From positions 1-64,000 of the forward strand of contig DUMS01000061.1 in the NCBI GenBank assembly GCA_012839745.1: a DNA stretch of 64,000 bases, given 5' to 3'. A program made the translations under genes and the position numbers. The notes under the pieces are model-generated. The model was not told the DNA's origin. It searched no databases and was given only the letters and a program-made list of their open reading frames with translations. Below are positions 8,520 through 30,389 of the stretch, piece after piece (position 1 is the first letter of the stretch; the number at the start of each line of letters is the position of its first letter). Source of the stretch: Tissierellia bacterium. GTDB lineage: Bacteria > Bacillota > Clostridia > Tissierellales > Tepidimicrobiaceae.

Positions 8520-8520
8520 A

Positions 8521-9078: not shown

Positions 9079-9107
9079 AAAAGGAGCCAGTAATTTTGGC
9101 TCCTTTT
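9079..9107 (+). terminator. Terminator of the ptb-buk-oxidoreductase operon
   Basis: Eleven-base arms (9079-9089 and 9097-9107, AAAAGGAGCCA and its complement) with a seven-base loop, T-rich on the 3' side and beginning directly after the stop codon. Confidence 0.9.
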
Positions 9108-9439: not shown

Positions 9440-9465
9440 TTTTTGAGGGTAGTATTGTCAATTAT

Positions 9466-9493
9466 AACTATAGAGCTCCCTCTATAGTTTTTT
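9466..9493 (+). terminator. Riboswitch-controlled terminator
   Basis: A perfect 10-bp stem (9466-9475 with 9480-9489, loop CTCC) is followed by six T. GAGGG at 9445-9449, right after the aptamer, can pair with CCCTC at 9478-9482 inside the hairpin; this would be the antiterminator used when no ligand is bound. It is the expected expression platform for the c-di-AMP aptamer. Confidence 0.85.
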
Positions 9494-9513
9494 GTTTATC
9501 AAAATTAAGCAAG

Positions 9514-9626
9514 AAACTCCCGCTTATGTTATATAAGCGGGAGATATGTTGCCATAGACTGTGATAGACACTACCCGAAGTGAAACAGAGAATCCCCATC
9601 TTCTACAAAGATGGAAGGTTCAAAAA
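9514..9626 (+). mobile_element. IS200/IS605-like end remnant with omega-RNA-like 3' part
   Basis: Between the riboswitch terminator and the next gene lie two hairpins. The first has 11-bp arms at 9517-9527 and 9533-9543 (CTCCCGCTTAT and complement). The second is GAATCCCCATCTT, CTAC, AAAGATGGAAGGTTCAA at about 9590-9623. The ending, GAATC plus hairpin plus GGTTCAA preceded by GTGAAACAG, resembles the right end of IS200/IS605 elements, where the omega RNA (reRNA) of TnpB ends. No tnpA or tnpB is present, so this would be a short non-autonomous relic. The resemblance is recalled, not searched. Confidence 0.5.
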
Positions 9627-9661
9627 TAAAGTAGGGAATTTATGGGATAGGAGGTAGTATG

Positions 9662-10780
9662 ATGAAAAGAGATATTAGCTATGCAGTTATTGGAGCCGGC
9701 AATGGAGGCATTGCCATGGCAGGATATCTGGCCTTAATTGGTTATGAAGTCAATTTGTACAATAGAACCAGGGATAATATATTATCTTTAATTGATGATC
9801 CTGTAATAGAATTATCCGGGGAAGTTGAAGGTACTGGAAGGCTGAACGTTGTTACTGATGACATTGGAAAGGCAATTAGGGGAGCTAACATAATAATGGT
9901 TACTATTCCAGCCATGGGGCATTATGACCTGGCTAAGTCCATGGCTCCATATTTGGAGGATGGTCAGATAATAGTGCTTAATCCTGGAAGAACAGGAGGA
10001 GCTTTAGAGGTCTATTCTGTTATAAAAAGCTTAACTGATAAAAAGGTAGTAGTAGCAGAAGCACAGACATTTATATATGCATGCAGAAAGACTTCTCCAA
10101 AGAGTGCCCATATATTTAAATCCAAAAAGGAAGTTAAACTGGCTGCAATACCATCAATTATGACTGACTACGTACTTAATGCTATAAATGAAGCTTATCC
10201 TCAGTTTATAGCAGCTGCCAACGTAATAGAAACAAGCATAAACAACTATGGAGCTATATTTCATCCAGCTCCAACTCTGTTAAACTGTGGCCATATAGAA
10301 AGAGGGGCACCTTTTGAATACTATACAGAGGGGATCACCCCTTCAATAGGCAATTTCCTTGAGAAAATGGATCATGAAAGAATGAAGATAGGAAGATTGT
10401 TGAATGTGGAAACAGTTTCAGCAAAGGATTGGCTGGAAGAAACCTATAATGCAAAGGGAAATAATCTATACGAAGCAGTGCAGAACAATCCAGGATATAG
10501 AGGACTTCAAGCTCCAAAGGGATTGAATATAAGATATATTTATGAGGATGTACCCTATAGCTTAATTCCTTTATCCTCTATTGCAAAGGAACTGAATATA
10601 GAAACTCCTGCCATAGATTCCATAATAAGATTGGCAACATTGATCACCGGAAGGAATTTCTTTGAAGAGGGAAGAACAGCTGAACGCCTGGGATTAAAAG
10701 GGCTTTCAGTAAAAGAAATGCATGAATATGCAGAAAAAGGATTTATCATGGAAGAAAATAAAGAGGAGGTGGCTTCATGA
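9662..10780 (+). CDS. NAD/NADP octopine/nopaline dehydrogenase family protein
   Basis: A Rossmann oxidoreductase of 372 residues. The N-terminal nucleotide site is VIGAGNGGIAMAGYLAL; IIMVTIPAMGHYDLAKSMAP and VLNPGRTGGALEV follow. The C-terminal helical domain holds NYGAIFHPAPTLLNCGHIE, with the His expected in the active site of opine dehydrogenases. Family members join an amino acid to a 2-oxoacid reductively, or run the reverse. Two ATGs (9659, 9662) are possible; AGGAGG at 9649-9654 favours the second. It overlaps the next gene by four bases (ATGA), so the two proteins probably act together. It lies downstream of a c-di-AMP riboswitch, which suggests a link to osmotic control; the actual substrate is unknown. 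Confidence 0.8.
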   Translation: MKRDISYAVIGAGNGGIAMAGYLALIGYEVNLYNRTRDNILSLIDDPVIELSGEVEGTGRLNVVTDDIGKAIRGANIIMVTIPAMGHYDLAKSMAPYLEDGQIIVLNPGRTGGALEVYSVIKSLTDKKVVVAEAQTFIYACRKTSPKSAHIFKSKKEVKLAAIPSIMTDYVLNAINEAYPQFIAAANVIETSINNYGAIFHPAPTLLNCGHIERGAPFEYYTEGITPSIGNFLEKMDHERMKIGRLLNVETVSAKDWLEETYNAKGNNLYEAVQNNPGYRGLQAPKGLNIRYIYEDVPYSLIPLSSIAKELNIETPAIDSIIRLATLITGRNFFEEGRTAERLGLKGLSVKEMHEYAEKGFIMEENKEEVAS

Positions 10781-12414
10781 GGAAAATACTGGCTTGTACA
10801 ATAGGCAATTGTGTCCATGTAGCAGGTACCATGAATTTTTTAAACCTTGCAGAAAATGAAGGGTATGAAACCGAGTTCCTGGGAATTGGAGTTCCTGTTG
10901 ATGAGCTTATAAAAAACATTAAGGAAAAGAAGCCTGATATTGTTGGACTGAGCTATAGGCTGACACCCGAACCTTTGGCAAAGATACTGGAAGAGCTGAA
11001 ACTTAAAATACAGGAGGAAGGCTTAAGGAATATCATATGGATATTCGGAGGAACGGAGCCAACTGGAAAGGTGGCAGAAGAGTCAAATATATTCAATAAG
11101 ATATTCTATGGATATGAAGATATTGATGAGGTTATTGGATACTTAAAGGGCAAGGAGTATAAGGATAAGGAAGAATACCCAAGGGATCTGATTTCCCGAA
11201 TAGAATCCAAATATCCATATCCTATATTAAGGCACCATTTAGGACTTCCAACTGTTGAAGCTACCATAGAGTCCATTGAAAAAATAGCTGAATCCAAGGT
11301 TCTTGATGTAATATCCATTGCACCTGACCAAAATGCTCAGGAGTACTTCTTTGAACAGGATAAGATGGATAAAAGGCTCGATGGTGCCGGAGGAGTGCCA
11401 TTGAGAACTGAGGAAGACTTCAGGAAGCTGTATGAAGCAGCACAAAGAGGAAACTATCCTCTATTAAGGTCATATAGCGGTACACAGAATATTATTAAAT
11501 TTGCAGAAGTGTTGAGAAGAACCATAAACAACGCCTGGTGTGCTGTGCCATTGTTCTGGTATAGCGAATTGGATAAGCGGGGACCAAGGAAGCTGAAGGA
11601 TGCCATAGCTGAAAATCAACAGGTTATGAAATGGCATGGAGAAAGGAATGTTCCAGTAGAAGTAAATGACCCTCATCATTGGAGCCTTAGAGATGCCCAC
11701 GATGCAATAGGCGTTGCTGCAGCCTATCTTGCTGCCTACAATGCAAAGAAGATGGGCGTTAAGGATTATGTGGCTCAATACATGTTCAACGTTCCTGCCT
11801 TCATATCTCCGGAGATGGATTTAGCCAAAATGCTGGCTAAAATAGAGCTGGTTGAAAGCTTACAGGATGATGGTTTCAAGGTATATAGACAGGCCAGAGC
11901 TGGCCTTGCAAGCTTCCCTGCAGATTTAAGCCAGGCAAAAGGCCAATTGGCAGCTTCTGCATATTTAGCCCTGGCTATTAAACCTCATATATACCATGTA
12001 GTAGGATATTGCGAAGCACACCACGCAGCAACCCATGAGGAAATAATAGAATCATGCAAAATAGTGAGAGGCGTTATTAAGAATGTATTTTTAGGCTCTG
12101 TTGATATCGCTAAGGATAGCAATGTTCAAAGAAGGAAGGAGCAGCTAATCAAGGAGGCTAATATTATAATAGATGCAATAAAGGCAATAGGGCCAAAGGA
12201 TAAAGACCCATTATCTGACCCTGAAACTTTGGCTAAAGCTGTAAAGATAGGAATTTTAGACGCACCCCATCTAAAAGGTAATCCTGCATGCAGTGGAAAA
12301 CTGAATACCAGGGTTATAAGCGGGGCGTTGTATGCATATGATAATGAGAATAAGAGGATAATTACCGAAGAGGAAAGAATAAATAGAATACTGGAGGCAA
12401 ATAAGGTTGGTTAA
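10777..12414 (+). CDS. B12-domain protein with mutase-like TIM-barrel part
   Basis: A 545-residue protein in two parts. Residues about 1-130 look like a cobalamin-binding Rossmann domain (KILACTIGNCVHVAGTMNF, then VGLSYRL and WIFGGTEPTG), but the usual D-x-H-x-x-G motif reads C-V-H-V-A-G, without the Asp. The rest resembles the barrel subunit of glutamate mutase (MutE/GlmE): GGVPLRTEEDFRKL, GNYPLLRSYSGTQN, EVNDPHHWSLRDAHDA, and the ending GILDAPHLKGNP. I read it as a possible fused carbon-skeleton mutase, but cannot name the substrate. Start and stop codons of the pair overlap, so it is translated with the opine-dehydrogenase-like protein. A terminator follows directly. Confidence 0.6.
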   Translation: MRKILACTIGNCVHVAGTMNFLNLAENEGYETEFLGIGVPVDELIKNIKEKKPDIVGLSYRLTPEPLAKILEELKLKIQEEGLRNIIWIFGGTEPTGKVAEESNIFNKIFYGYEDIDEVIGYLKGKEYKDKEEYPRDLISRIESKYPYPILRHHLGLPTVEATIESIEKIAESKVLDVISIAPDQNAQEYFFEQDKMDKRLDGAGGVPLRTEEDFRKLYEAAQRGNYPLLRSYSGTQNIIKFAEVLRRTINNAWCAVPLFWYSELDKRGPRKLKDAIAENQQVMKWHGERNVPVEVNDPHHWSLRDAHDAIGVAAAYLAAYNAKKMGVKDYVAQYMFNVPAFISPEMDLAKMLAKIELVESLQDDGFKVYRQARAGLASFPADLSQAKGQLAASAYLALAIKPHIYHVVGYCEAHHAATHEEIIESCKIVRGVIKNVFLGSVDIAKDSNVQRRKEQLIKEANIIIDAIKAIGPKDKDPLSDPETLAKAVKIGILDAPHLKGNPACSGKLNTRVISGALYAYDNENKRIITEEERINRILEANKVG

Positions 12415-12415
12415 T

Positions 12416-12450
12416 GGAAGCCTGCTGAATTAAGTAGGCTTCCTAATTTT
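12416..12450 (+). terminator. Terminator after the opine-dehydrogenase/B12-domain operon
   Basis: Arms GGAAGCCT at 12416-12423 and AGGCTTCC at 12436-12443, extended by CT/AG, followed by TAATTTT. It begins one base after the stop codon. Confidence 0.85.
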
Positions 12451-12689
12451 AATAGTTTTTTTTAGCTTATTGAAATTTTATAGCACTTGTAGTAGTATAT
12501 AAATATAGGAATAGGACTTTATACCTAAATTTATACATGATAAATGTTTTTCAAACATACCTGACGAATTTTCAGCATTTTTGATAAATTGTTGTCAACC
12601 TAATTCATAATAAATATTCCACTTTATAAGCCGTTGGATAAATTGCAAATGTTGTAGAAAAACAAAAATATTATGTTATAATATTTTTT

Positions 12690-12824
12690 TGATGGGCAGT
12701 ATCATGCACACCTGTAACTTATGCTATGAGTTAGCAGTAATAAATAGGCAGGCTAATATCTATATTTTTATGCCTGTTGAGAACGGAAATCAGGAAACCA
12801 TCTACTTCTATAAGTGATGGTAAT
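12690..12824 (+). ncRNA. Structured leader or small RNA of unknown type
   Basis: A good -10 (TATAAT near 12676) precedes a segment that can form three hairpins: CTGTAACT...AGTTAGCAG (about 12713-12738), CAGGC...GCCTG (about 12750-12779), and CCATCTACTT...AAGTGATGG (about 12798-12820), the last followed by TAATTTATTTT. This is much more structured than the AT-rich flanks and ends just before the ribosome-binding site of the next gene. I compared it from memory with 6S RNA, T-box, c-di-GMP, preQ1, THF, fluoride and SAM elements and it matches none. The 12451-12689 part holds no other feature. Confidence 0.4.
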
Positions 12825-12847
12825 TTATTTTGAACAGAGGTGCTCAT

Positions 12848-13246
12848 ATGGGGGATGAAGGATATTTGAAGAAAAAGTGTTTGGAATTAACTCTTGATTT
12901 TTTAAAAGGCATGGATTCCATAAAGGTTATAGACATGATAATAGATATATATGATAATGTCAGGTATTATACTGTGGATGAGGAGTCCATTAAACAGAAG
13001 TTTTTAAAGGTTCTTTATAATTTAAAGAATTCAGAAACACTGGATTCCCTGATGGAAGAAAGGGATAAAATGATGTTAAATTCATTTATAGGGGATCTAT
13101 TGCAGATTAAAACCGATTCCAACAGATTTTATCTAGGGAATGAGGATTTTTCCAATTTGTCATTAGATGACATTTATCATCTGTTAATAGAGTTAAAATA
13201 TATAAAGGAAAAGGAAATTGAGGACAAAAAGGGAGCTGCCAATTGA
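12848..13246 (+). CDS. Hypothetical protein, 132 residues
   Basis: I do not recognise this family. The ATG at 12848 has AGAGGTG five bases upstream; an in-frame TTG at 12830 has none. The product is soluble, charged and predicted mostly helical, with an acidic middle (NVRYYTVDEESIKQ) and a basic, Lys-rich end. There is no signal peptide, Cys pair or nucleotide motif. It stands alone between the structured RNA region and the convergent fabZ gene, and its last 20 bases form one arm of the shared terminator. Confidence 0.6.
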   Translation: MGDEGYLKKKCLELTLDFLKGMDSIKVIDMIIDIYDNVRYYTVDEESIKQKFLKVLYNLKNSETLDSLMEERDKMMLNSFIGDLLQIKTDSNRFYLGNEDFSNLSLDDIYHLLIELKYIKEKEIEDKKGAAN

Positions 13247-13264
13247 TTGGCAGCTCCCTTTTAT
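13227..13264. terminator. Bidirectional terminator between the hypothetical gene and fabZ
   Basis: A nearly gap-free palindrome: AAAAGGGAGCTGCCAAT (13227-13243) faces its exact complement (13246-13262) across only two bases. It gives a long GC-rich stem with T runs on both strands. It includes the 3' coding end of the + gene and touches the fabZ stop codon, so it can serve both convergent transcripts. Confidence 0.9.
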
Positions 13265-13692
13265 TCTATTGCAAACAGAAATTCACCTTCTGCAGCTACT
13301 TGGCCACATACATAAGCAGTGCCTGTTCCTATTCCGATATTCTTTCTCATTTTGATTATTTCCACTTTCATTTCAAGTCTATCTCCAGGAACCACCTTTC
13401 TTTTAAACCTGACTTTGTTTATACCTGCAAAATAGGGAATTCTTCCTCTATAGCTTTCTTCCGAAAGAAGTATTACTGCTCCTGTTTGAGCCATGGATTC
13501 AATAATTAGTACTCCCGGCATTACTGGCATGTTTGGAAAATGCCCTTTAAAGAAAGGCTCATTTATTGTTACATTTTTGTATCCAGTACCCTTCCTGCCG
13601 GGTTCTTCTATTTCCACCCTGTCAACTAACAGAAAAGGATATCTATGAGGTATTATTCTCATTATCTCTTCTATATCAATACTTTCAATCAT
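13261..13692 (-). CDS. fabZ: (3R)-hydroxyacyl-ACP dehydratase FabZ
   Basis: Removes water from 3-hydroxyacyl-ACP in type II fatty-acid synthesis. The 143-residue hot-dog-fold protein starts at the ATG at 13692, which has GAGGTGA upstream; the frame extends to 13713 without support. Motifs: [15 protein letters not shown] near the N-terminus and [20 protein letters not shown], which contains the catalytic His and Glu. It is transcribed away from the rest of the fab genes, sharing a 195-base control region with fabH, unlike clostridia in which fabZ lies inside the operon. Confidence 0.96.
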
Positions 13693-13887
13693 TTTCTCAC
13701 CTCTTAATTGCATATTATAAAATAGTTGACCAGCACAAAAAAATATTATATACTTTTACTTAAGCTTTGCTATATATACTATATATAATACAAAAATTGA
13801 AAAAATTAGGCAATTTATTTTTTGTGACTGTATTGTGAAGGAGGTGATAAGAATAATCAGGCTAATTAATTAAATGGAGGTGAAAAA
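13693..13887. promoter_or_regulatory. Divergent fabZ / fabH control region
   Basis: This AT-rich spacer must hold both promoters. A near-palindrome (TATATA-TAC-TATATA, about 13772-13786) lies in its middle and could be a -10 overlap or an operator. I looked for the FapR and FabT boxes as I remember them and did not find a match. Near the right end an extra GAAGGAGGTG (about 13837) precedes AAATGGAGGTG, the site used by fabH. Confidence 0.45.
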
Positions 13888-14877
13888 TTGAATATATCAG
13901 TAGGATTAACTGGCATAGGTAGTTATGTACCAGACAAGGCTGTAACCAACGAAGACCTGTCTAGAATAGTTGATACTTCCAATGAATGGATAGTAGAAAG
14001 AACAGGAATCAGAGAAAGAAGAATTGTAGATTATTATACTTCCACTTCCGATATTGCTACAAAGGCAGCACTAAGAGCATTGGAAGATGGTAATACTTCA
14101 CCTGAAGAAATAGACATGATAATAGTAGCAACTGTAACTCCTGATATGTCCTTTCCATCAACAGCTTGCATCGTCCAGAAGAGCATAAGAGCAGTAAATG
14201 CTGCAGCTTTTGATATTTCTGTAGGGTGTTCAGGATTTGTGTATGGACTGAGCATAGGAATGAGCTTCATAAAAGCAGGAGTTTGTAGAAAGGTTCTTGT
14301 TATTGGAGCAGAGACCCTTTCAAAGATTGTTGACTGGCAAGATAGAAGCACTTGCATATTGTTTGGTGATGGGGCTGGAGCTTGTATTTTGGAAAGATGT
14401 GAAGAAGGATACGGTATTTTATCACAGGATTTAGGGTCAGATGGAAATGGAGGTAATCTGTTAACATTGCCTGCTGGTGGCTCAAAACTACCTGCTAGTT
14501 ACGAGACTGTATCGAACAATCTTCACACGATAAAAATGGATGGCAGAGAGGTGTTTAAGTTTGCAGTAAGGGTTATAGAAAAAACTGCAAATGATGCCCT
14601 TGAAAAAGCTCAGCTATCCTTAAAGGACATTGATTTTTTTGTTCCCCATCAGGCAAATTTAAGAATCATACAGTCAGCCATGAAAAAGCTGGATCTCAAG
14701 CAGGATAAGGTATATGTGAATCTGGATAAATACGGGAACATGTCTTCTGCTTCAATACCTGTGGCATTGGATGAAGCCTACAGGAAATCCATGATAAAAA
14801 GAGGAGATGTAGTATTATTGGTAGCTTTTGGTGCTGGATTGACGTGGGGCTCATTAGTTCTGAAATGGAACAAATAG
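13888..14877 (+). CDS. fabH: 3-oxoacyl-ACP synthase III FabH
   Basis: Starts fatty-acid chains by condensing an acyl-CoA with malonyl-ACP. Length 329 residues, with a TTG start behind GGAGGTG. The catalytic Cys is in SVGCSGFVYG (residue about 113), the His in FFVPHQANLRI, and the Asn in NMSSASIPVALDEA. First gene of the + strand operon fabH-fabK-fabD-fabG-acpP-fabF. Branched-chain acyl-CoAs, such as those the oxidoreductase at 6.7 kb may yield, could serve as primers, but primer choice is not readable here. Confidence 0.96.
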   Translation: MNISVGLTGIGSYVPDKAVTNEDLSRIVDTSNEWIVERTGIRERRIVDYYTSTSDIATKAALRALEDGNTSPEEIDMIIVATVTPDMSFPSTACIVQKSIRAVNAAAFDISVGCSGFVYGLSIGMSFIKAGVCRKVLVIGAETLSKIVDWQDRSTCILFGDGAGACILERCEEGYGILSQDLGSDGNGGNLLTLPAGGSKLPASYETVSNNLHTIKMDGREVFKFAVRVIEKTANDALEKAQLSLKDIDFFVPHQANLRIIQSAMKKLDLKQDKVYVNLDKYGNMSSASIPVALDEAYRKSMIKRGDVVLLVAFGAGLTWGSLVLKWNK

Positions 14878-14888
14878 GAGGTGTGAGT

Positions 14889-15848
14889 ATGTTTGATACG
14901 AGGATTTGTAGGCTATTGGGTATTGAGTATCCCATAATTCAGGGAGGCATGGCTTGGGTGGCAACACACGAACTGGCAGTAGCAGTATCTGAAGCTGGAG
15001 GGCTAGGCATAATTGCAGCTGGAAATGCTCCACCGGATGTCATAAGGGAAGAAATAATTAACTTCAAGAAAAAAAGTCAAAAGCCTTTCGGAGTAAATAT
15101 AATGCTTATGTCACCTTTTGCTGAGGATATAGTAGGTATAATCTGTGAAGAGAGGGTTCCCGTGGTGACTACAGGTGCGGGAAATCCAGGCAAGTATATA
15201 GATAAGTTTAAGAAGCATAGAATAAAGGTAATACCTGTAGTACCTACTGTGTCCTTAGCAAAGCGATTGGAACGGATTGGAGTAGATGCTGTAATAGCAG
15301 AAGGAACTGAAGCAGGTGGCCATATTGGAGAATTGACTACTATGGCACTTGTTCCTCAAATTGTGGATGCAGTGGATATACCTGTAATTGCAGCCGGAGG
15401 CATTGGAGATGGAAGAGGATTTTTGGCTGCTCTATCCTTAGGCGCTGAAGGTGTGCAGATGGGAACAAGATTTGTATGCTCTACTGAGTGTACAGCCCAT
15501 GATAACTATAAGGAAATGATAGTGAAATCCAAGGATAGGGATGCAGTAGTTACAGGAAGGAGTACAGGAAGGCCTGTTAGAGTTTTGAAAAATAATTTCG
15601 CCAAAGAGTACCTGGAACTGGAAAAGAAGGGTACTCCCTTTGAAGAGCTTGAAAGTCTTGGAGCAGGAAGATTGAGGCTTGCAGTAAAGGAAGGAGAGGT
15701 TACTGTAGGCTCTGTTATGGCTGGACAGATAGCAGGCCTTATAAAAGACATAAAGCCCTGCAGGAAAATTATTGAAGATATTGTTAAAGAAGCGGAATTG
15801 ATGCTGAAGAATATAGCCTCTTTAAAAGGGGGTGTATTCTTTGAATAA
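14889..15848 (+). CDS. fabK: Enoyl-ACP reductase II FabK (FMN-dependent)
   Basis: Reduces enoyl-ACP, the last step of each elongation cycle, using FMN and NAD(P)H. The 319-residue protein starts at the ATG at 14889 after GGAGGTGTGAG; the open frame reaching back to 14844 lies inside fabH. Motifs: PIIQGGMAWVATHELA, GVNIMLMSP, AEGTEAGGHIGELTTM, and VIAAGGIGDGRG, the last two binding FMN. FabK replaces FabI, which is usual in clostridia and streptococci. Its stop codon overlaps the fabD start region. Confidence 0.95.
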   Translation: MFDTRICRLLGIEYPIIQGGMAWVATHELAVAVSEAGGLGIIAAGNAPPDVIREEIINFKKKSQKPFGVNIMLMSPFAEDIVGIICEERVPVVTTGAGNPGKYIDKFKKHRIKVIPVVPTVSLAKRLERIGVDAVIAEGTEAGGHIGELTTMALVPQIVDAVDIPVIAAGGIGDGRGFLAALSLGAEGVQMGTRFVCSTECTAHDNYKEMIVKSKDRDAVVTGRSTGRPVRVLKNNFAKEYLELEKKGTPFEELESLGAGRLRLAVKEGEVTVGSVMAGQIAGLIKDIKPCRKIIEDIVKEAELMLKNIASLKGGVFFE

Positions 15849-16800
15849 GATAGCTTTCATATTTCCTGGACAGGGGGCTCAGCACGTAGGGATGGGCAAG
15901 GACTTCTATGAGAACTTTAAGGAATCACGTCTCGTGTTTGAAGAAGCCAATGATTCACTTAACATGGATTTGAAGTCCATGTGCTTTGAAGGGTCGGATT
16001 CAGACCTTATGAAGACTGAGAATACCCAGCCGGCAATACTTGCAACCAGCATTGCAATTATGAAGGCCCTGGAAAAGGAAGGCATAGACTGTGATTACAC
16101 TGCTGGGCTTAGCTTGGGAGAATATACTGCTTTAGTGAAATCAGGAGGAATCAAGCTAAGGGATGCCCTAAGGCTTGTTAGAATCAGAGGCAAGCTGATG
16201 CAGGAAACAGTACCTCAGGGAGTAGGCGGAATGGCAGCCATATTAGGCTTAAGCAGAGATAAGGTAAAGGAGGCAATAGAAGAAGTAAGGGACGAATATC
16301 TGGTGGAAATAGCAAACTATAATTCACCTGAACAGATAGTAATATCGGGAGTAAGGGAAGGAATTGAAAAAGCCTGTAGGAAGGCATTGGAACTGGGAGC
16401 AAAAAAAGCAGTTGTGCTTCCTGTCAGTGCACCATTTCACTCAAGCCTGCTGGAGCCTGCCGGAAGGAAATTAAAAGAAGTACTGGATGAAATAGAATTA
16501 TTTGACCTGGAAAAGAACCTTATATCAAATGTAGATGCCAGACCTGTAATAAAAAAGGATGAAGTAAAGGAAAAGCTGGTAAAACAGGTAAGCAGTTCAG
16601 TTCTTTGGCAGGATAGCGTAGAATTCTTAATTAACCAAGGAGTAGAAACATTCATTGAAATAGGTCCAGGCAAAAGCCTTACGGGATTTGTAAAGAGAAT
16701 AAGCAAGTCGTTAAATAAGGATGTTAAGTCGTACAATGTCAGCGATATTGATACATTTGTTAAAACCATTTCAGCAATTAGAGAGGGGGAGATGAATTGA
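15841..16800 (+). CDS. fabD: Malonyl-CoA:ACP transacylase FabD
   Basis: Loads malonyl groups from CoA onto ACP. The 319-residue protein starts at the TTG at 15841, behind AAAGGGGGTG, overlapping the fabK stop by eight bases. Motifs: FIFPGQGAQHVGMG at the N-terminus, GLSLGEYTALV with the catalytic Ser, PVSAPFHSSLL with the catalytic His, and IEIGPGKSLTGFVKR near the C-terminus. Confidence 0.96.
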   Translation: MNKIAFIFPGQGAQHVGMGKDFYENFKESRLVFEEANDSLNMDLKSMCFEGSDSDLMKTENTQPAILATSIAIMKALEKEGIDCDYTAGLSLGEYTALVKSGGIKLRDALRLVRIRGKLMQETVPQGVGGMAAILGLSRDKVKEAIEEVRDEYLVEIANYNSPEQIVISGVREGIEKACRKALELGAKKAVVLPVSAPFHSSLLEPAGRKLKEVLDEIELFDLEKNLISNVDARPVIKKDEVKEKLVKQVSSSVLWQDSVEFLINQGVETFIEIGPGKSLTGFVKRISKSLNKDVKSYNVSDIDTFVKTISAIREGEMN

Positions 16801-20630: not shown

Positions 20631-21980
20631 GTGGGCAAACTATTTGGCACAGATGGGATAAGAGGAATTGCAAATATGGATTTAACTCCTGAACTGGCCT
20701 TTAAGGTAGGCAGAGCTGGAGCTTATGTGCTGTCTAAAGGGAAGAAAGGAAAGATAGTTGTAGGCAAGGACACAAGATTATCAGGAGATATGCTTGAAGC
20801 AGCACTTACTGCAGGAATTCTTTCAACTGGATTAGATGTAATATCCTTAGGAGTAGTTCCTACCCCTGCAGTGGCATATTTGACCAAAAAATATAATGCC
20901 CTGGCAGGTGTTGTAATATCAGCTTCCCATAACCCAGTGGAATATAACGGGATTAAGTTCTTTAATGAAGAAGGATTTAAGCTAAATGATGAGATAGAAG
21001 AAGAAATAGAGAATTACATAGAGAAGGACCATGAAATACCATTGCGTCCAATTAAAGGGGAAATAGGGCGCACCATAATGGAGTCTGATGGCTATAAACA
21101 CTATATGTCGCATTTGAAATCAACCATTAATCATGATTTTAAAGGATTGAAGATAGCAGTAGACTGCGGTAATGGTGCAGTATTCAGCATAGCACCAATG
21201 CTGATAAGAGAATTAAATGCAGAGGTAGTTGTAATAAACGACAATCCAAATGGAGTAAATATAAATGTAGAGTGTGGTTCCACCAATCCTTCCATGATTA
21301 AGTCTTTAGTTCTTGAAACAAAGGCAGACATTGGACTGTCCTTTGATGGAGATGCAGACAGGCTAATTGCAGTAGATGAAAAGGGAAACATTATAGACGG
21401 GGATCACATATTGGCAATCTGCGGAACATATCTTAAGGAGCAGGGCAAGCTAAAAAACAATACAGTAGTAGGTACAGTAATGACAAATATAGGCCTCGAT
21501 GTATATCTGAAAAACAACGGGATGAAAGTTGTAAAGACTAAGGTTGGCGACAGATATGTATTGGAGGAAATGATGAATAATGGCTACATATTAGGCGGTG
21601 AACAATCAGGACATATTATATTTCTAGAGCATAGCACAACCGGTGATGGGATGTTAACAGCTCTGCAATTGATAAATGTCATGAAGGAAACAGGCAAAAA
21701 GGCTTCTGAACTGAACAGCATTATGACCAGCTACCCACAGGTATTGGAAAATGCAAGGGTAAGAAAGGAATTAAAGGATTCCTATATGGAAAATGAAGAG
21801 ATAAAATCCGAAATAGAAAGAATTGAGAATATGTTTAAGGGTGAAGGCAGGGTGGTTATAAGGCCTTCTGGCACAGAACCTCTTATTAGAGTTATGATTG
21901 AAGGAAAGGATAAAGAAAAAATAGAAGCTGTCGCCAGGGATTTGGCCAGGTTTATAGAGGAAAGGCTGGGGCAAAAATAG
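20631..21980 (+). CDS. glmM: Phosphoglucosamine mutase GlmM
   Basis: Turns glucosamine-6-phosphate into glucosamine-1-phosphate for cell-wall synthesis. 449 residues, GTG start behind AGGAGGG. Motifs: KLFGTDGIRGIAN, VISASHNPVEYNG with the phosphorylated Ser, LSFDGDADRLIAV for Mg, GGEQSGHIIF for sugar binding, and RPSGTEPLIRVMIE for phosphate. In Bacillus and Listeria GlmM can inhibit CdaA and is encoded next to it; here it is about 17 kb from cdaA-cdaR. No glmS or glmS ribozyme follows. Confidence 0.96.
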   Translation: MGKLFGTDGIRGIANMDLTPELAFKVGRAGAYVLSKGKKGKIVVGKDTRLSGDMLEAALTAGILSTGLDVISLGVVPTPAVAYLTKKYNALAGVVISASHNPVEYNGIKFFNEEGFKLNDEIEEEIENYIEKDHEIPLRPIKGEIGRTIMESDGYKHYMSHLKSTINHDFKGLKIAVDCGNGAVFSIAPMLIRELNAEVVVINDNPNGVNINVECGSTNPSMIKSLVLETKADIGLSFDGDADRLIAVDEKGNIIDGDHILAICGTYLKEQGKLKNNTVVGTVMTNIGLDVYLKNNGMKVVKTKVGDRYVLEEMMNNGYILGGEQSGHIIFLEHSTTGDGMLTALQLINVMKETGKKASELNSIMTSYPQVLENARVRKELKDSYMENEEIKSEIERIENMFKGEGRVVIRPSGTEPLIRVMIEGKDKEKIEAVARDLARFIEERLGQK

Positions 21981-22324: not shown

Positions 22325-22370
22325 ATAAATTAATAATATTCAAATAATGACAAAGGGGGAGTATTTAAAA

Positions 22371-24314
22371 ATGAAAAGAAAGTTATCTTTGCTATTAGCG
22401 TTAGTATTAGCGCTAGCACTCTTCATGACTGCCTGTGGCAGTTCTAAGGACACAGCTACAAATGATCCTGAAGAAACTGAACAACCAACAGAAACAGGTG
22501 AAGGCGACGAAGAAACCCTAGAGCCACCAGCAGAACCTATGGGACAATTAATCATAGGAAATACTACAGAAATGTCTGGAGAATGGCTACCATATTTCCA
22601 AAACATTGCATCAGACTATGACATTTGGAACTTCATTAACGGTTACAGCACAGTAGCTATAACTTTTGATGGAGAATATGTAGTTGATACAACAGTAGTA
22701 AAAGACTATAAGGTTACAGAAAATGAAGACGGTTCCAAGACATATACTTGGACAATTGCAGATAACCTAGTATACGATGATGGAACTCCTATTACAGCTA
22801 AAGACTATGTTGCATCAGCTCTATTATGGTCATCACAACTACTAGGAGAAATGGGAGGAAGCAACTCCTATGGATTGTACTGGAAGGGCTGGAGTGAATT
22901 CTCCAAGGGACAAACTAATGTATTTGCAGGTGTTAATTTAATTGATGATTATACTTTTGCTATTACTATTGATGCTTCAAATCTTCCATACTTCTATGAA
23001 TTACCAATGGTAAGCGTAGGACCTACTAAACTATCATACTGGTTAGATGAAACTGTAGATATTGCTGATGATGGTGAAGGATGCTACTTTACAGTAGATA
23101 TAAATGCTAAGAATCCTGATGGTTCTCTAGTATATGCTGAGAAGATCAGTGCAGCTAAGTCAAATCCATTCTATCCAGCAAGCGGTCCATATGTAGTAAA
23201 GAGCTTTGATGCTACAACTAAGACAGCAGTTCTTGAAGTTAATGACAAATACGTAGGCGACTATACTGGTCAAAAACCAAAGATTAAGACTATAATCTAT
23301 AAGCTTGTTAACCAATCAACTCAATTTGACGAATTGGCAACTGGTTCAGTTGACTTATTACCTGAGAATGGTAGTGGAGACGCTATCAATGCAGGTCTTG
23401 ACTTAGTAGAGCAAGGCGGATTCTCATACAGTACACACCCACGTTCCGGATATGGTAAGATTCACTTCGCTTGTGACTTTGGACCAACTGCAGACGTAGA
23501 AGTACGTCAAGCTATAGCACACCTATTGGACAGAAACGAATTTGCTAAGTCATTTACAGGTGGATTCGGTTCAGTAGTAAACGGTCCTTATGGAGAAGCA
23601 ATGTGGTTCTATCAGGAGACAAAAGCTGAGTTGAATCAAAAAGTAAATCAATATCCATATGATTTGAACAAAGCAATTGAATTGTTAGAATCAGCTGGAT
23701 GGACATTAAATGCTAATGGCGAGCCATACAAAGAAGGAGACGGAGTACGTTATAAGAGAACTGAAGATGGCAAATTAATGCCACTTATCATTGAATGGGC
23801 TTCAACAGAAAACAACCAGGTATCAGACCTATTAGTAGTAAAATTACAACAAAATCCTGATTTAGCAAAAGCAGGTATTCAAATTAACCAAACAACTATG
23901 ACATTCCCAGAATTAATTAACTGGATGTATCGTGACAAGTCACAAGGAGCAGAATATGCTGTACCAACATACCATATGTTCAACTTGGCAACAAACTATT
24001 CACCATGGTATGACCTATCAACAGAATACGTAACAGACCCAGACATGGTTGCAGCTGGCTACAATACAAACTATATATTTGATGAAGAGCTGGAAAGACT
24101 ATCAAAGGAAATGGTATTAGTAGATCCTAACGATAGAGAAGGATTCAAACGTAAATTCGTAGACTTCATCGTAAGATGGAATTACTTATTGCCAGACCTA
24201 CCACTATACTCAAATATCTACCATGACTTCTATAATGATAAGCTACAAAACTGGAAGATGAACTCCAACGTAGATGTTACTCAGGCAGTTCTATATGCAT
24301 GGGTAACAGAATAG
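22371..24314 (+). CDS. Oligopeptide ABC transporter, substrate-binding lipoprotein
   Basis: A 647-residue extracellular solute-binding protein of family 5 (SBP_bac_5/OppA type). The start is the ATG at 22371 behind AAAGGGGGAG. The signal peptide MKRKLSLLLALVLALALF ends in the lipobox FMTACGSS, then an acidic, Thr/Glu-rich linker. Family features: DNLVYDDGTPITAKDYVAS and a segment with VRQAIAHLLDRNEFAKSF. It is longer than most OppA proteins (about 540-600). Codon choice differs from its neighbours (more CTA, TCA, CGT), which fits high expression. A hairpin after the gene probably separates its level from that of the membrane parts. Confidence 0.9.
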   Translation: MKRKLSLLLALVLALALFMTACGSSKDTATNDPEETEQPTETGEGDEETLEPPAEPMGQLIIGNTTEMSGEWLPYFQNIASDYDIWNFINGYSTVAITFDGEYVVDTTVVKDYKVTENEDGSKTYTWTIADNLVYDDGTPITAKDYVASALLWSSQLLGEMGGSNSYGLYWKGWSEFSKGQTNVFAGVNLIDDYTFAITIDASNLPYFYELPMVSVGPTKLSYWLDETVDIADDGEGCYFTVDINAKNPDGSLVYAEKISAAKSNPFYPASGPYVVKSFDATTKTAVLEVNDKYVGDYTGQKPKIKTIIYKLVNQSTQFDELATGSVDLLPENGSGDAINAGLDLVEQGGFSYSTHPRSGYGKIHFACDFGPTADVEVRQAIAHLLDRNEFAKSFTGGFGSVVNGPYGEAMWFYQETKAELNQKVNQYPYDLNKAIELLESAGWTLNANGEPYKEGDGVRYKRTEDGKLMPLIIEWASTENNQVSDLLVVKLQQNPDLAKAGIQINQTTMTFPELINWMYRDKSQGAEYAVPTYHMFNLATNYSPWYDLSTEYVTDPDMVAAGYNTNYIFDEELERLSKEMVLVDPNDREGFKRKFVDFIVRWNYLLPDLPLYSNIYHDFYNDKLQNWKMNSNVDVTQAVLYAWVTE

Positions 24315-24352
24315 TTGAAATATTAGATTATAGAATTTCATAGATTGCTTGT

Positions 24353-24386
24353 GTAGAAATAGGGTATGCAAATATCCTATTTCTAC
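24353..24386 (+). terminator. Hairpin between opp binding protein and permease genes
   Basis: GTAGAAATAGG (24353-24363) pairs perfectly with CCTATTTCTAC (24376-24386). The tail is only weakly T-rich, so it is likely a partial terminator or an mRNA-stabilising stem, as often found behind binding-protein genes. Confidence 0.7.
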
Positions 24387-24470
24387 ATATTTAAGCAAAA
24401 TTTATTACATTAAAACATTAATAGAATCAAGTTTAAAATCATACAAAACTAGAATAAGGCGGGTAATGAG

Positions 24471-25457
24471 ATGGGTAAATATGTTGCTAAAAGATTATTA
24501 TATATGTTATTTGTTTTAGCAGTAATGACATTTGTATTATTTTTCTTATATAACTTAATACCAGGCGACCCTGCTAGAGCTGAAGTTGAGCCTATGAAAC
24601 ACAGGCTTAAACCGGAAGAATACCAGTACAGATATGAGCAAGCCAGAAAAAGGCTTGGATTGGATGACCCATTAATTGTTAGATATGGGAAATGGGTTAG
24701 AAATTTGCTTAAAGGTGATTTAGGAATTTCCAAGGTTTATAATAAACCAGTCATTGAAGTTTTGAAACCTCCTCTAAAGGTTACAGTTACAGTAAATATA
24801 TTTGTAACTATCTTTTCTTTAGGCATTACCATACCGTTAGGTATTATCTGTGCAGTAAAGAAGAATTCTAAATTTGATAAAGTCGTGCAAGTATTTACTA
24901 TAGTAGGTTACAGCCTTCCTGTATTTATATTTGCACTGTTGTTTATATATGCATTTGCAGTTAAGCTTAGATGGTTCCCGGTAAGTGGCATGAAAACTCC
25001 AAACTTCTCTGGCACTCCATGGGAAGAGTTCAAGGATATGATGCATCATTTAACATTACCTCTTATAGTGTTGATTATAGGTTCCTTAGGAGGTATGACA
25101 AGATATGTCCGTGCAGCCATGATTGACGCTTTAAGTATGGACTGCATTAAGACTGCAAGAGCCAAAGGACTTAGCGAAAAAGTGGTAATTTATTCTCACG
25201 CATGGAGAAATGCCCTTCTTCCTGTTATAACATTGATTATAGGATGGTTTATGAGCATATTCAGCGGTTCACTGGTCACAGAAACAATGTTTGTACTAAA
25301 CGGGATGGGGAAGATCTATATTGATGCGCTAAATAATCAGGACTACAATATAGCTTTAGCGATACAGTTATTCTATATAGTAATGGCAGTACTTGGAAAC
25401 CTGATTGCAGACCTAAGCTATGGAATAGTAGATCCTCGTGTAAGGGTTAATAAGTAA
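24471..25457 (+). CDS. Oligopeptide ABC transporter permease (OppB/DppB type)
   Basis: Inner-membrane permease, 328 residues with six predicted helices. The N-terminus KRLLYMLFVLAVMTFVLFFL and FLYNLIPGDPARAE are typical of DppB/OppB, which carry the P-G-D-P motif after helix 1. The EAA loop is near KTARAKGLSEKVVIYSHAWRN, the contact site for the ATPase. The C-terminus SYGIVDPRVRVN matches the usual ending. It is the normal half of an unusual permease pair. Confidence 0.93.
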   Translation: MGKYVAKRLLYMLFVLAVMTFVLFFLYNLIPGDPARAEVEPMKHRLKPEEYQYRYEQARKRLGLDDPLIVRYGKWVRNLLKGDLGISKVYNKPVIEVLKPPLKVTVTVNIFVTIFSLGITIPLGIICAVKKNSKFDKVVQVFTIVGYSLPVFIFALLFIYAFAVKLRWFPVSGMKTPNFSGTPWEEFKDMMHHLTLPLIVLIIGSLGGMTRYVRAAMIDALSMDCIKTARAKGLSEKVVIYSHAWRNALLPVITLIIGWFMSIFSGSLVTETMFVLNGMGKIYIDALNNQDYNIALAIQLFYIVMAVLGNLIADLSYGIVDPRVRVNK

Positions 25458-25472
25458 AGGAGGAGGTAAAAC

Positions 25473-27326
25473 ATGAGCTCAAGTCAATATAGTAAAGCTA
25501 AAGAAAACGATAAAAGTAAAAAAAGTTTTACACGCCTTCTCTTTGGAAAGCTATTTGGAGGGAAGAAGGAGTTATCAATATTTGAAGAAGAGCAGGTGCA
25601 AAGCCCTTTTAGAACAGTTATAAGAACCTTCAGAGATAACAAGGTTTCAATGACAGCGTTTTATACATTTTTGATAATGTTTCTAATTTTAACTATAGGA
25701 CCTATGATAAAACCTATTGACTTATCCTTTTCAGAAACAAGCCAGCAAAATATAGCCCCTGGTTTTGATTTTCTAAAGTTCCCAAAAGAATTAAACGGAA
25801 AGGTACAGGACATTGCAATAGGCCCTACTTTTAGCCTAGGAGTTTCTACAGATGGCGATTTATATATTTGGGGTAAAACCCGTGTTTCAAGAACAATAGA
25901 TATAAAAGCAGAAGTACCTAAAGGAATGGGTAAGATTGTAAAAGTTGCTGCAGGTTTTGACCATGTACTTGCTCTAAACGACCAAGGAGAAGTATTCGCA
26001 TGGGGCAGCGGTAGACAAATGCAGACTACAATTCCAGATTATATTAAGAGTTTAAATAATATTAAGGATATAGAAGCAGGCTATCAGAACTCCATTATAC
26101 TGACAGAAGATGGTTATATTCACTACTTTGGCAATGCTATGAACAATGACTATAACGAATTCAATGAATATCAAGGCCAGATAAAACAGGTTGCCCTTAC
26201 TGCTGATGCTGTAATAGGACTGACTTTTGATGGACAAGTAGTTTACTTAGGTATGATGGATAACAGCTATACTAAAATACCTGAAAATATGGGAAACGTT
26301 ATAGATATAGCTGCTACAGCTACAACAGTGGCTGCATTAAATGACCAGGGACAGGTTTTTGTATGGGGTAATATTTCTACATTTAGTGACGGAAATGAAG
26401 CACAGGTTGTTGAAACTGATAGTCGCATAATTGATATTGAGGGTGGAAGAACTCATTATACAGCATTAACAGAATCCGGGCAAGTTGTAGCCTGGGGTAG
26501 AAACTACTATAATCAGGCATCTGTTCCAAAAGAGCTGTCAAATGTTAAAATAGAAAGAATATACACCGATTTTTATCAGAATTATGCAATTGATGAAAAT
26601 GGGAATATACACGTTTGGGGCTTAAAAGGATATTTAATGGGCACTGATGATATTGGAAGAGATATATTTACGAGGCTTTTAAACGGCGGTCGTATGACTA
26701 TTACCATTGGAGCTGTTGCTGTTATTATATCCACAATAATCGGAGTTATCGTAGGAGGAATATCTGGATATTTCGGTGGGAAACTGGATATGGTATTACA
26801 GAGAATTTCTGAAATGGTTGCTTCCTTGCCTTTCTTGCCCTTTGCAATGATTTTGTCATCTTTAATTGGAAATGCTATGAGTGCAACCCAAAGGGTTTAC
26901 TTCATAATGGTTGTATTAGGCTTACTATCCTGGACAGGATTACAGAGGCTGGTCCGTGCACAGGTTCTTTCTGTTAGAGAACAGGAATATGTAACTGCTG
27001 CCAGGTCATTAGGAATTAAGAAATACAATATTGTATTTAGACATATATTGCCAAACGTTATATCAGTAATACTCGTAGATGCAACATTGAGCTTTGCATT
27101 AAGTATGCTCACCGAATCAACTTTATCCTTTTTGGGTTTTGGTGTTCAACCTCCACAACCAACTTGGGGTAATATGCTCTATGGTTCAAATAACAGTGTC
27201 GTAATACAAAACTATTGGTGGAGATGGGTATTTGCATCTATAGCATTAAGTATATGCGTAATATGTGTTAACCTAATAGGCGATGGACTAAGAGATGCAA
27301 TAGATCCAAAATCACATGAACGTTAG
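25473..27326 (+). CDS. OppC-type permease with an inserted seven-repeat RCC1-like domain
   Basis: A 617-residue permease, about twice the usual OppC length. Residues 1-57 are a charged cytoplasmic tail and 58-78 the first helix. Residues about 108-385, in the loop facing outside, hold seven repeats of about 41 residues, each with a G-x-hydrophobic core ending in WG or similar: DGDLYIWGK, QGEVFAWGS, DGYIHYFGN, DGQVVYLGM, QGQVFVWGN, SGQVVAWGR and NGNIHVWGL. These are RCC1-like repeats, and seven make one beta-propeller. The permease core resumes at LMGTDDIGRDIFTRLLNGGR, the normal OppC motif, with the EAA loop at AARSLGIKKYNIVFRHILPN. AAGGAGGAGG lies upstream. The propeller may dock the binding protein or sense peptides; that is inference. 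Confidence 0.9.
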   Translation: MSSSQYSKAKENDKSKKSFTRLLFGKLFGGKKELSIFEEEQVQSPFRTVIRTFRDNKVSMTAFYTFLIMFLILTIGPMIKPIDLSFSETSQQNIAPGFDFLKFPKELNGKVQDIAIGPTFSLGVSTDGDLYIWGKTRVSRTIDIKAEVPKGMGKIVKVAAGFDHVLALNDQGEVFAWGSGRQMQTTIPDYIKSLNNIKDIEAGYQNSIILTEDGYIHYFGNAMNNDYNEFNEYQGQIKQVALTADAVIGLTFDGQVVYLGMMDNSYTKIPENMGNVIDIAATATTVAALNDQGQVFVWGNISTFSDGNEAQVVETDSRIIDIEGGRTHYTALTESGQVVAWGRNYYNQASVPKELSNVKIERIYTDFYQNYAIDENGNIHVWGLKGYLMGTDDIGRDIFTRLLNGGRMTITIGAVAVIISTIIGVIVGGISGYFGGKLDMVLQRISEMVASLPFLPFAMILSSLIGNAMSATQRVYFIMVVLGLLSWTGLQRLVRAQVLSVREQEYVTAARSLGIKKYNIVFRHILPNVISVILVDATLSFALSMLTESTLSFLGFGVQPPQPTWGNMLYGSNNSVVIQNYWWRWVFASIALSICVICVNLIGDGLRDAIDPKSHER

Positions 27327-27338
27327 GGGGAAAATTAG

Positions 27339-28331
27339 ATGGCTCTATTAGAACTTAGAAATCTGCATACTTACTTTACGACAAAAAGGGGAATCATCAA
27401 GGCAGTAAACGACGTATCATACTCAGTAGAAGCAGGGAAGACCCTTGGCGTTGTAGGTGAAAGTGGTAGTGGTAAAAGTGTTTCGGCAATGAGTATAATA
27501 AAGCTGTTGGATGGCAACGGATATATCCATAGCGGTGAAATAATATTTAATGGACAGAACCTAGTTGATGTTCCTATGAATGAGATGAGAAATATCAGAG
27601 GAAATGAGATTTCTGTAATTTTCCAGGAGCCAATGACTTCCTTGAATCCAGTATTTACAATTGAAAAACAGGTTTCTGAACCCTTTATTATACACCAGGG
27701 AATGACTAAAAAGGAAGCTGCCAAAAAAGTAGTCGAAATGCTATCCCTTGTTAAGATACCAAATCCGGAATCTGTTGCTAAACAATATCCACACCAGCTT
27801 TCAGGTGGTATGCGTCAACGTGTTATGATTGCTATGGCCTTAGCATGTAGACCAAAGCTTTTAATTGCAGATGAGCCAACAACTGCATTGGACGTTACTA
27901 TACAGGCTCAAATACTGAAATTGATGAATGAATTGAAAGAGGAAGTAGGAACTTCCATATTGTTTATAACTCACGATTTAGGAGTTATCAATGAGATGGC
28001 TGATGATGTTGCCGTCATGTATTGTGGACAGGTAGTAGAAATGGCACCAGCAAGAACCATATTTGGAAGGGATAGTAAATATTCTCATCCTTATACAGAA
28101 GGATTGATGTATTCAATTCCAAGACTGGATACACCTAAAGGAGTAAGACTGGAAGCCATACCAGGTGCTGTACCTCATCCGCTGGCTCTCCCAGAAGGCT
28201 GTAAATTTGCACCAAGATGCAAATATGCCACAGATAAATGTCATAAATATGAACCAAAATTGGAAGATATAGAGCCAGGACATAAGATACGCTGTTTCTA
28301 TCCAGAGAAAGGGGTGAGGGCAAATGGCTAA
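27339..28331 (+). CDS. Oligopeptide ABC transporter ATPase (OppD/DppD type)
   Basis: Cytoplasmic ATPase, 330 residues. Walker A VGESGSGKSVSAM, Q-loop ISVIFQEPMTSLNP, signature QLSGGMRQRVMIAMAL, Walker B LLIADEPTTALDVT, and H-loop SILFITHDLGV. The C-terminal oligopeptide/dipeptide domain has CKFAPRCKYATDKCHK, the four-Cys pattern typical of DppD/OppD and sometimes an Fe-S site. It overlaps the next ATPase gene by eight bases, so the two subunits are translated together. Confidence 0.94.
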   Translation: MALLELRNLHTYFTTKRGIIKAVNDVSYSVEAGKTLGVVGESGSGKSVSAMSIIKLLDGNGYIHSGEIIFNGQNLVDVPMNEMRNIRGNEISVIFQEPMTSLNPVFTIEKQVSEPFIIHQGMTKKEAAKKVVEMLSLVKIPNPESVAKQYPHQLSGGMRQRVMIAMALACRPKLLIADEPTTALDVTIQAQILKLMNELKEEVGTSILFITHDLGVINEMADDVAVMYCGQVVEMAPARTIFGRDSKYSHPYTEGLMYSIPRLDTPKGVRLEAIPGAVPHPLALPEGCKFAPRCKYATDKCHKYEPKLEDIEPGHKIRCFYPEKGVRANG

Positions 28332-29889
28332 CAAACAAGAGAATAGGAAGCCATTAATTCGCATACAGCACTTGAAGCAATACTTCCCTGTAAAGGGCAA
28401 ATCCATATTTGATAGGGAAATAAGAGTTGTAAAAGCTAATGATGATATAAGCCTGGATATATATGAAGGAGAAACATTAGGGCTGGTAGGTGAAAGCGGT
28501 TGCGGTAAATCCACATTGGGCCGTTCCCTTTTACAGCTATATGATCAAACCGATGGACTTACCATCTACTACGGAAGAGAATTAGAGGAATTAGCACCAA
28601 AGTATGTTTTGGACATACTGGAAAACCTAAGCAGCAAATATAAGGAATTAAAGGAACTGGAAAGAAAGGAAAAGGAAGCATATCAGACTTACGAGAGGCT
28701 GCCAGAAGGCGATGAAAAATATGAAGCATTGGAAAAAGCACGTGCTGTAGAAAAGAGCAGGAAAAACCTATTTTTGGATTTAACCAGGTTGGTTGGAGGA
28801 TTACTGCTTTACGATGACCTTAATGAAGTATCCAGGGAGTTAGTAAAGGAATATAAGCTAAAAATAGAAGTAAGCAGGTTGAAAAGAGAAATTCAGGAAA
28901 ATCAAGCTAAGATAGATGGAACTATATCTGTACTTCAGGAAAAAGGAGCCAGCAAGGAAGAAATAGAAAGAAAAACAAGCAAATACACTGCTAAAATTAA
29001 AGAAAATGAAGGGAGAATAGCAAAACTAAATAAGGAAATCCAATCCATCCAAGATGGCATTGAAAAACTAAAGGATAAGTGCAGAAAACATCCAGAATTT
29101 GAAAACTATGAATCATACAAGGACTCAGGTATTGACCTTACAAAGCTTACTGAGGATGAGATGAGAGTATTGCGCAAGGATTTGCAATTGATATTCCAGG
29201 ACCCATACTCTTCTCTAAATCCAAGATTAACAGTAGGACAGATAATTTCAGAGCCTTTGTTTGCTCACAATATATTTGCTAAAAATGACAAGAAGGTACA
29301 GGACTATGTATTAAAGACAATGGATGAGTGTGGTCTGGCGCCATACTTCTTGCATCGCTATCCACACCAATTCTCTGGAGGTCAAAGACAGCGTATTGGC
29401 ATTGCTCGTTCTGTAGCCTTAAGGCCAAAGTTTATTGTGTGCGATGAAGCTGTATCGGCATTGGACGTATCCATTCAATCTCAGATATTGAATCTATTGC
29501 TGGACTTAAAGGAAAAGCAAAATTTAACTTACTTGTTTATTTCGCACGACCTAAGCGTTATAAAATATATAAGCGACAGGGTTGCTGTTATGTATTTAGG
29601 CAACGTTATAGAGCTTGCTGACACTGATGAGCTATATGCTCATCCAATGCATCCATATACTGAAGCTCTATTAGCTGCAATACCAACAACAGACCCAGAT
29701 AGGGAAAAGAAGCAGGTAATATTGGAAGGAGATATTCCAAGCCCAATATCACCACCACCTGGATGCAAATTCCATACAAGATGTAAATATGCTACAGATA
29801 TATGCAGCAAGGTGGTACCAGAATTTGAAGAAGCAAGACCAGGTCATTTTGTAGCATGCCACCATAAGCTGAACAATGGAGATAAATAG
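28324..29889 (+). CDS. OppF-type ATPase with a 180-residue coiled-coil insertion
   Basis: A 521-residue ATPase; normal OppF has about 320. The Walker A (GESGCGKSTLG, residues 56-66) and the Q-loop (LQLIFQDPYSSLNPR, from residue 287) are normal but separated by an extra stretch at about 90-272. It is highly charged and rich in Glu/Lys/Leu heptads (KELKELERKEKEAY, VSRLKREIQENQAKIDG, RIAKLNKEIQSIQDGIEKLK), so it probably forms an antiparallel coiled coil. The rest is regular: FSGGQRQRIGIARS, IVCDEAVSALDVS, SHDLSVI, and the C-terminal CKFHTRCKYATDIC. The insertion keeps the frame and all catalytic motifs, so the protein is likely active. Confidence 0.9.
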   Translation: MANKQENRKPLIRIQHLKQYFPVKGKSIFDREIRVVKANDDISLDIYEGETLGLVGESGCGKSTLGRSLLQLYDQTDGLTIYYGRELEELAPKYVLDILENLSSKYKELKELERKEKEAYQTYERLPEGDEKYEALEKARAVEKSRKNLFLDLTRLVGGLLLYDDLNEVSRELVKEYKLKIEVSRLKREIQENQAKIDGTISVLQEKGASKEEIERKTSKYTAKIKENEGRIAKLNKEIQSIQDGIEKLKDKCRKHPEFENYESYKDSGIDLTKLTEDEMRVLRKDLQLIFQDPYSSLNPRLTVGQIISEPLFAHNIFAKNDKKVQDYVLKTMDECGLAPYFLHRYPHQFSGGQRQRIGIARSVALRPKFIVCDEAVSALDVSIQSQILNLLLDLKEKQNLTYLFISHDLSVIKYISDRVAVMYLGNVIELADTDELYAHPMHPYTEALLAAIPTTDPDREKKQVILEGDIPSPISPPPGCKFHTRCKYATDICSKVVPEFEEARPGHFVACHHKLNNGDK

Positions 29890-30304: not shown

Positions 30305-30389
30305 GCGGGAGTGGCGGAATTGGCAGACGCGCTAGACTTAGGATCTAGTGTCATGTGACGTGGGGGTTCAAGTCCTCTCTCCCGCACCA
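30305..30389 (+). tRNA. tRNA-Leu (anticodon TAG)
   Basis: 85 bases including an encoded CCA. The acceptor GCGGGAG pairs with CTCCCGC, discriminator A. The D-arm is GGCGGAATTGGCAGACGC, the anticodon arm GACTTAGGATC reads TAG (codon CUA), a class II variable arm TGTCATGTGACG follows, then the T-arm GGGGGTTCAAGTCCTCT. The long variable arm and A-rich D-loop fit leucine. It is a single tRNA gene, not part of a cluster. Confidence 0.97.

Follow-up and report, generated by a model that had tools for sequence, protein, structure and literature searches.

Gene composition of the locus

The window, that is, the whole stretch of 64,000 nucleotides that was analyzed (contig DUMS01000061.1 of a Tissierellia bacterium), contains a complete predicted peptide importer operon at positions 22347-29889, which encodes a substrate-binding protein (SBP), two permease subunits and two ATPases. 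The features considered here are the following.

22347..24314, + strand: lipoprotein substrate-binding protein, SBP_bac_5, 655 aa
24471..25457, + strand: OppB-type permease subunit, 328 aa
25473..27326, + strand: OppC-type permease subunit with an inserted propeller, 617 aa, start codon ATG (ORF call, Pfam, AF2, VIA-align)
25641..25709, + strand: TM1 of OppC, residues 57-79, within OppC_N (residues 44-96) (DSSP of the AF2 model)
25761..26627, + strand: BLIP-II/RCC1-like seven-bladed propeller, predicted to be extracellular, residues ~97-385 (blades ~108-383)
26622..26663, + strand: junction LKGYLMGTDDIGRD, residues 384-397, leading from the last blade to TM2 (linker entropy)
26628..27323, + strand: OppC transmembrane core and cytoplasmic EAA-type loop (residues ~503-528) (BPD_transp_1; VIA-align)
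27339..28331, + strand: OppD-type ATPase, 330 aa, normal length
28324..29889, + strand: OppF-type ATPase, 521 aa
28585..29127, + strand: OppF insert, residues ~88-268, between Walker A and the Q-loop (AF2; alignment; co-occurrence with the fused OppC)

The operon is flanked by glmM (20631-21980) on one side and by a tRNA gene, tig and clpP on the other. The tRNA gene (30305-30386, + strand) lies between the operon and tig; it is the only RNA found and is located downstream, so that RNA regulation upstream of the operon was rejected. No regulator or kinase gene is seen within the operon. The order SBP-OppB-OppC-OppD-OppF is constant in all loci examined that encode the fused OppC (hereinafter decorated loci), as far as each contig reaches. 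In sister genomes, the same glmM-tig-clpP slot is occupied by a plain Opp4-type operon (loci L095-L103), with an OppC of ~307-325 aa, an OppF of ~324-335 aa and an SBP of 576-586 aa. The SBPs of the decorated operons, by contrast, reach ~600-817 aa, being enlarged through several insertions spread over their length. One genome (G045) has both operons at separate places, the plain Opp4-type one in the tig-clpP slot (L103) and the decorated one elsewhere (L110). In another genome (G1355), the whole decorated five-gene operon is duplicated in tandem (L109, positions 1518-16714).

Architecture of the OppC-type subunit

The OppC-type protein contains both domains typical of such permeases, namely BPD_transp_1 at residues 424-613 (E 1.3e-31; 110.2 bits, above the Pfam gathering threshold of 26.4) and OppC_N at residues 44-96 (E 1.9e-7; 31.3 bits, gathering threshold 23.9). 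The AF2 model of this protein, built on a 44-sequence family alignment, has a mean pLDDT of 84.8 and aligns with E. coli OppC (8z21_B) over 277 of 278 residues (VIA-align; Z 30.2, rmsd 2.3); the OppC fold, TM1 and the EAA coupling loop included, can thus be considered complete. Among the NCBIfam models, Opp4C matches the core best (E 4.8e-91), although the score against this equivalog (NF045476; 304.9 bits over residues 386-613) is below the curated cut-off of 350. By analogy with OppC/DppC-type permeases of type I ABC importers, this subunit should support peptide import that depends on the binding protein. The initial annotation, which described a subunit of 617 residues with an additional domain between TM1 and the GTDxxGRD motif, is confirmed by the ORF call, Pfam and the AF2 model.

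The inserted region consists of exactly seven repeats of ~41 residues, in agreement with the count and the positions originally proposed. The blades end in WG (five), FG (one) or LG (one) at residues 133, 177, 219, 259, 298, 341 and 382. Because the spacings between these ends range from 39 to 44 residues (44, 42, 40, 39, 43 and 41), simple offset autocorrelation of the blades is uninformative. DSSP assigns seven sets of three strands in the AF2 model (residues 111-134, 155-178, 197-220, 237-258, 276-299, 319-342 and 360-383), and the pLDDT of the propeller blocks is ~90-96 except at residues 301-310, where it falls to 74. The region is matched by RCC1_2 (PF13540) in five stretches (E 2.9e-35; 119.6 bits, well above the gathering threshold of 22); the WD40_RLD profile (PF25390) yields E 2.8e-38 but, at 132.6 bits, remains below its gathering threshold of 150. 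In the structural comparison, residues 97-374 match BLIP-II (3qi0_A; Z 30.0, rmsd 2.1, 255 residues), which is also the top PDB sequence match (E 1e-20). The model thus bears out the proposal of one seven-bladed propeller in the TM1-TM2 loop, with seven predicted three-stranded blades. The assignment of the blades to the RCC1 type stands with respect to the repeat family (RCC1_2), whereas the closest solved relative is BLIP-II rather than RCC1. The initial annotation had also suggested a search for RCC1 and BPD_transp_1 domains in the same protein across Firmicutes; both match in all 44 relatives scanned. Together with the low dN/dS values (0.03-0.18, see below), this co-occurrence indicates that the propeller is not a chance resemblance.

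The point of insertion can be defined precisely. In the profile alignment, it falls between residues 77 and 80 of E. coli OppC, directly ahead of GTD, so that the propeller is located between the conserved AP(G) and GYxxGTD motifs. The loop between TM1 and TM2 that bears the propeller should lie outside the cell, given the OppC homology, the presence of three TM helices between the propeller and the cytoplasmic EAA loop, and the lysine-rich N-terminal tail of the fused OppC. Within the inserted region, conservation peaks at the junction between the last blade and TM2 (residues 384-397), with a mean entropy of 0.58 bits compared to 1.9-2.2 bits in the other, poorly conserved inter-blade linkers. 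Among the loops of the propeller itself, those connecting strands A and B show the highest conservation, with invariant H164, Q205, H328, Q369 and Y371 and near-invariant N370. This pattern of sequence conservation suggests that the A-B loops form a binding face.

The four-helix insert of OppF

The OppF-type ATPase contains an insert of ~180 residues which is modelled by AF2 as four long helices (residues 102-125, 130-162, 166-206 and 211-253; block pLDDT ~87-98). The insert carries a conserved GG at residues 158-159. Without the insert, OppF is normal, as indicated by the alignment with E. coli OppF (8z21_D; Z 40.9, 325 of 328 residues). A comparison of the insert with PDB sequences detected no relative, only coiled-coil noise, and the matches in the structure search with OppF are to the ATPase part alone.

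In every complete decorated operon, OppF is ~470-565 aa long, and the insert is present in 51 of 51 such operons; it is absent from undecorated relatives, including the plain operon in the glmM-tig-clpP slot. An independent search for the insert gave matches in 14 of 391 genomes of the class, all of them among the 17 with a fused OppC, and the remaining three of these (G052, G074 and G405) encode a long OppF too. Because all decorated loci belong to one clade, this co-occurrence reflects one or two evolutionary events rather than 51 independent ones. In E. coli, DppC pairs with DppF (PMC12136057); the additions to OppC and OppF would accordingly be located on the same C-F half of the importer, one outside and one inside the cell, and the two may be linked. 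The original observation on OppC is sound and turns out to be somewhat larger than stated, the paired OppF insert having been missed.

Distribution and evolution of the fused permeases

A scan of genome contigs identified 49 full-length fused relatives in Tissierellales, Lachnospiraceae, Oscillospiraceae, Acetivibrionaceae and other groups. The fusion is present in 10 of 61 genomes of relatives, 17 of 391 genomes of the class and 14 of 398 genomes of the phylum, the genome of the window being counted in each of the three samples. The claim that such a fusion is unusual therefore holds, at ~3-4% of the sampled genomes of the class and phylum, yet this is an old clade and not a one-off. Among the genomes sampled, fused permeases are seen only in Bacillota; no match was obtained in Spirochaetota (149 genomes) or Pseudomonadota (200 genomes) at the strict E of 1e-85, a weak negative given that this search had no positive control. 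Cultivated strains with the fusion include Acetivibrio ethanolgignens, Merdimmobilis hominis and Soehngenia longivitae.

In the tree of the OppC core (99 rows, with the propeller left out), a single branch with support 100 sets the 59 fused proteins apart; their neighbor is the plain Opp4-type OppC, and none of the members of this 59-protein clade is propeller-free. The propeller was inserted into OppC once and has a single origin. With 49 full-length relatives, low dN/dS and a single clade in the tree, an assembly or frame artefact is ruled out. The loci of family f4 are split within the clade: L090 and L091 are basal whereas L094 is found among the Tissierellales sequences nearest to the window. 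This split placement, along with the patchy presence of the fusion, suggests transfer of whole operons.

Identity is higher between equivalent blades of distant relatives (37%) than between different blades within one protein (24%), which rules out recent amplification of blades; judging from the sequences, the propeller is old. Over eleven close pairs, the dN/dS of the propeller is 0.03-0.18, with dS near saturation in some of the pairs, and the propeller is kept by purifying selection. Compared with the core, it has diverged faster (mean distance 1.24 versus 0.46), and the OppF insert is the fastest evolving part (1.98). One locus (L089 in G277; 5943-8063, - strand) encodes a fused OppC of 707 aa in which blades 2 and 3 are separated by an additional acidic, low-complexity segment. 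In another genome which also encodes a fused OppC (G831), a separate protein of 558 aa (L108 on contig C56; 1883-3556, - strand) has, judged by eye, an SPFH-like N-terminal part, together with a TM segment and, at the C-terminus, RCC1-like repeats whose blades are nearly identical.

Possible functions of the propeller

The most likely role of the propeller in this type I peptide importer, proposed here tentatively, is that of an outer docking or retention module for the enlarged SBP or for the SBP-peptide complex, direct contact with the SBP being favored only mildly. Several observations point in this direction: both domains are intact and confidently modelled, the OppC fold being otherwise complete; the insertion is found in the outer region between TM1 and TM2; the SBP gene comes first in a constant gene order, and its product is longer in the decorated operons; and the A-B loops are the best conserved ones, as might be expected of a binding face. 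In E. coli Dpp, the TM1-TM2 outer region differs between the two permeases, and a scoop on the TM1 side of DppB enters the SBP cleft (PMC12136057). When the distances of the core subunits are removed, the propeller distances correlate best with those of the SBP (partial r 0.44, or 0.58 with flexible controls), which compares with 0.40/0.44 for the SBP and the scoop region of OppB, a known contact in Dpp. At 0.53, the correlation between the propeller and the cytoplasmic N-terminal tail of OppC itself is nearly as high, so that rate covariation is suggestive rather than specific and poorly tells partners apart. Ordinary Opp systems dock the SBP without any propeller, which counts against docking.

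In mechanistic terms, the docking scheme would involve a five-gene type I ABC peptide importer in which the first outer loop of OppC carries a BLIP-II-type propeller and OppF a four-helix domain. The lipoprotein SBP would bind a peptide and then dock on OppB/OppC, where the propeller, held tightly beside the GTDxxGRD segment, would dock and retain it at the mouth of the pathway. ATP binding would open the outer gate and hydrolysis would reset the importer, as in Opp/Dpp.

The fold does not name the ligand of the propeller, since propellers of the BLIP-II and RCC1 types have a wide range of unrelated binding partners. The importer could be a transceptor, used for sensing or itself gated: the propeller would recognize some extracellular ligand distinct from the peptide that is imported, and the cytoplasmic four-helix domain of OppF would either receive the state of the C-F half or control it. 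Such a role appears rather unlikely. It would fit the joint presence of the propeller and the insert in all complete operons and in the genome search, their predicted position on one half (given the DppC-DppF pairing; PMC12136057) and the residues of the A-B face that are atypical of RCC1 repeats (invariant Q205, Q369 and Y371, near-invariant N370). However, within a single clade, the co-occurrence may come from one or two old events inherited jointly, the rates of the propeller and the OppF insert correlate less (0.22/0.34) than those of the propeller and the SBP, the OppF insert is the fastest evolving part, which is unusual for a precise signalling surface, and the operon lacks a visible regulator or kinase gene. 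A still more doubtful version is a signalling importer regulated by a pair of modules, one outer and one inner, in which the OppC propeller would be the receptor and the ligand state would pass via the C-F half to the four-helix domain.

A partner in the cell envelope can be envisaged as well: by binding peptidoglycan, a penicillin-binding protein or another surface protein, the propeller might place the importer where wall peptides or products of proteolysis arise. The nearest solved relative by both sequence and fold, BLIP-II, is a secreted binder of class A beta-lactamases (PMC6121496), which makes such tethering conceivable, if unlikely; the likeness to BLIP-II is one of fold, at 24-29% identity, a wall-binding motif was not identified, conservation of the inter-blade linkers is low, and the tight, conserved stretch of 14 residues that leads into TM2 points to a propeller coupled to the permease, not to one loosely tethered. 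That the propeller merely shields or stabilizes the outer face, with no specific ligand, is improbable. Its fast evolution relative to the core and the fact that ordinary Opp systems function without it are compatible with passive decoration, whereas the lack of propeller-free members among the 59 proteins of the fused clade, the low dN/dS and the clustering of invariant residues in the A-B loops argue against it. Docking of the SBP remains the preferred, if tentative, reading.

Few bacterial uptake systems for nutrients and peptide signals have been studied as much as the Opp/Dpp importers, whose permeases are usually regarded as minimal six-helix subunits. The conserved clade of gut- and digester-associated (sludge-type) Clostridia described here, with an outer propeller of a protein-binding type and a helical domain in the partner ATPase, would lend itself naturally to examining how a type I importer can be extended by outer and inner modules, and its presence in cultivated strains makes the system open to experiment.

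Comparison with known systems

The decorated system has the same subunit make-up as E. coli OppBCDF/DppABCDF (8z21, 8z1v-z) and M. tuberculosis OppABCD/DppABCD (8j5q-t, 8wd9-b), and shares with them the full OppC and OppF folds, the ATPase motifs and the C-terminal cysteine region; in these characterized systems, OppC/DppC lacks the propeller and OppF/DppF lacks the four-helix insert. Eukaryotic RCC1, UVR8 and HERC RCC1-like domains have the repeat family (PF13540, PF00415) and the seven blades in common with the propeller but are intracellular, with longer blades, whereas the propeller is predicted to be extracellular. RCC1 and BLIP-II have been placed in one group (PMC9218822). BLIP-II (1jtd, 3qhy, 3qi0) is a seven-bladed propeller with only three strands per blade (PMC6121496), as in the fused OppC. 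Unlike the propeller analyzed here, which is part of an integral membrane protein and hence falls outside that class, BLIP-II is a free, secreted, single-domain inhibitor; the likeness is one of fold (~26% identity), and of the two, only BLIP-II is known to bind beta-lactamases.

The closest system is the Opp4-type operon (NCBIfam Opp4A/B/C), which is alike in gene order and chromosomal slot and forms the sister clade in the OppC core tree. It differs in having no inserts in OppC or OppF and a shorter SBP (~577 aa), and the OppC of the window scores below the Opp4C cut-off. No description of an RCC1-OppC or RCC1-ABC permease fusion was found in openly licensed PMC papers, although domain databases may well list the architecture. 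The decorated systems thus constitute a distinct Opp clade, undescribed as far as the literature search reached, in which a known type of importer is combined with a propeller and a helical domain of OppF.
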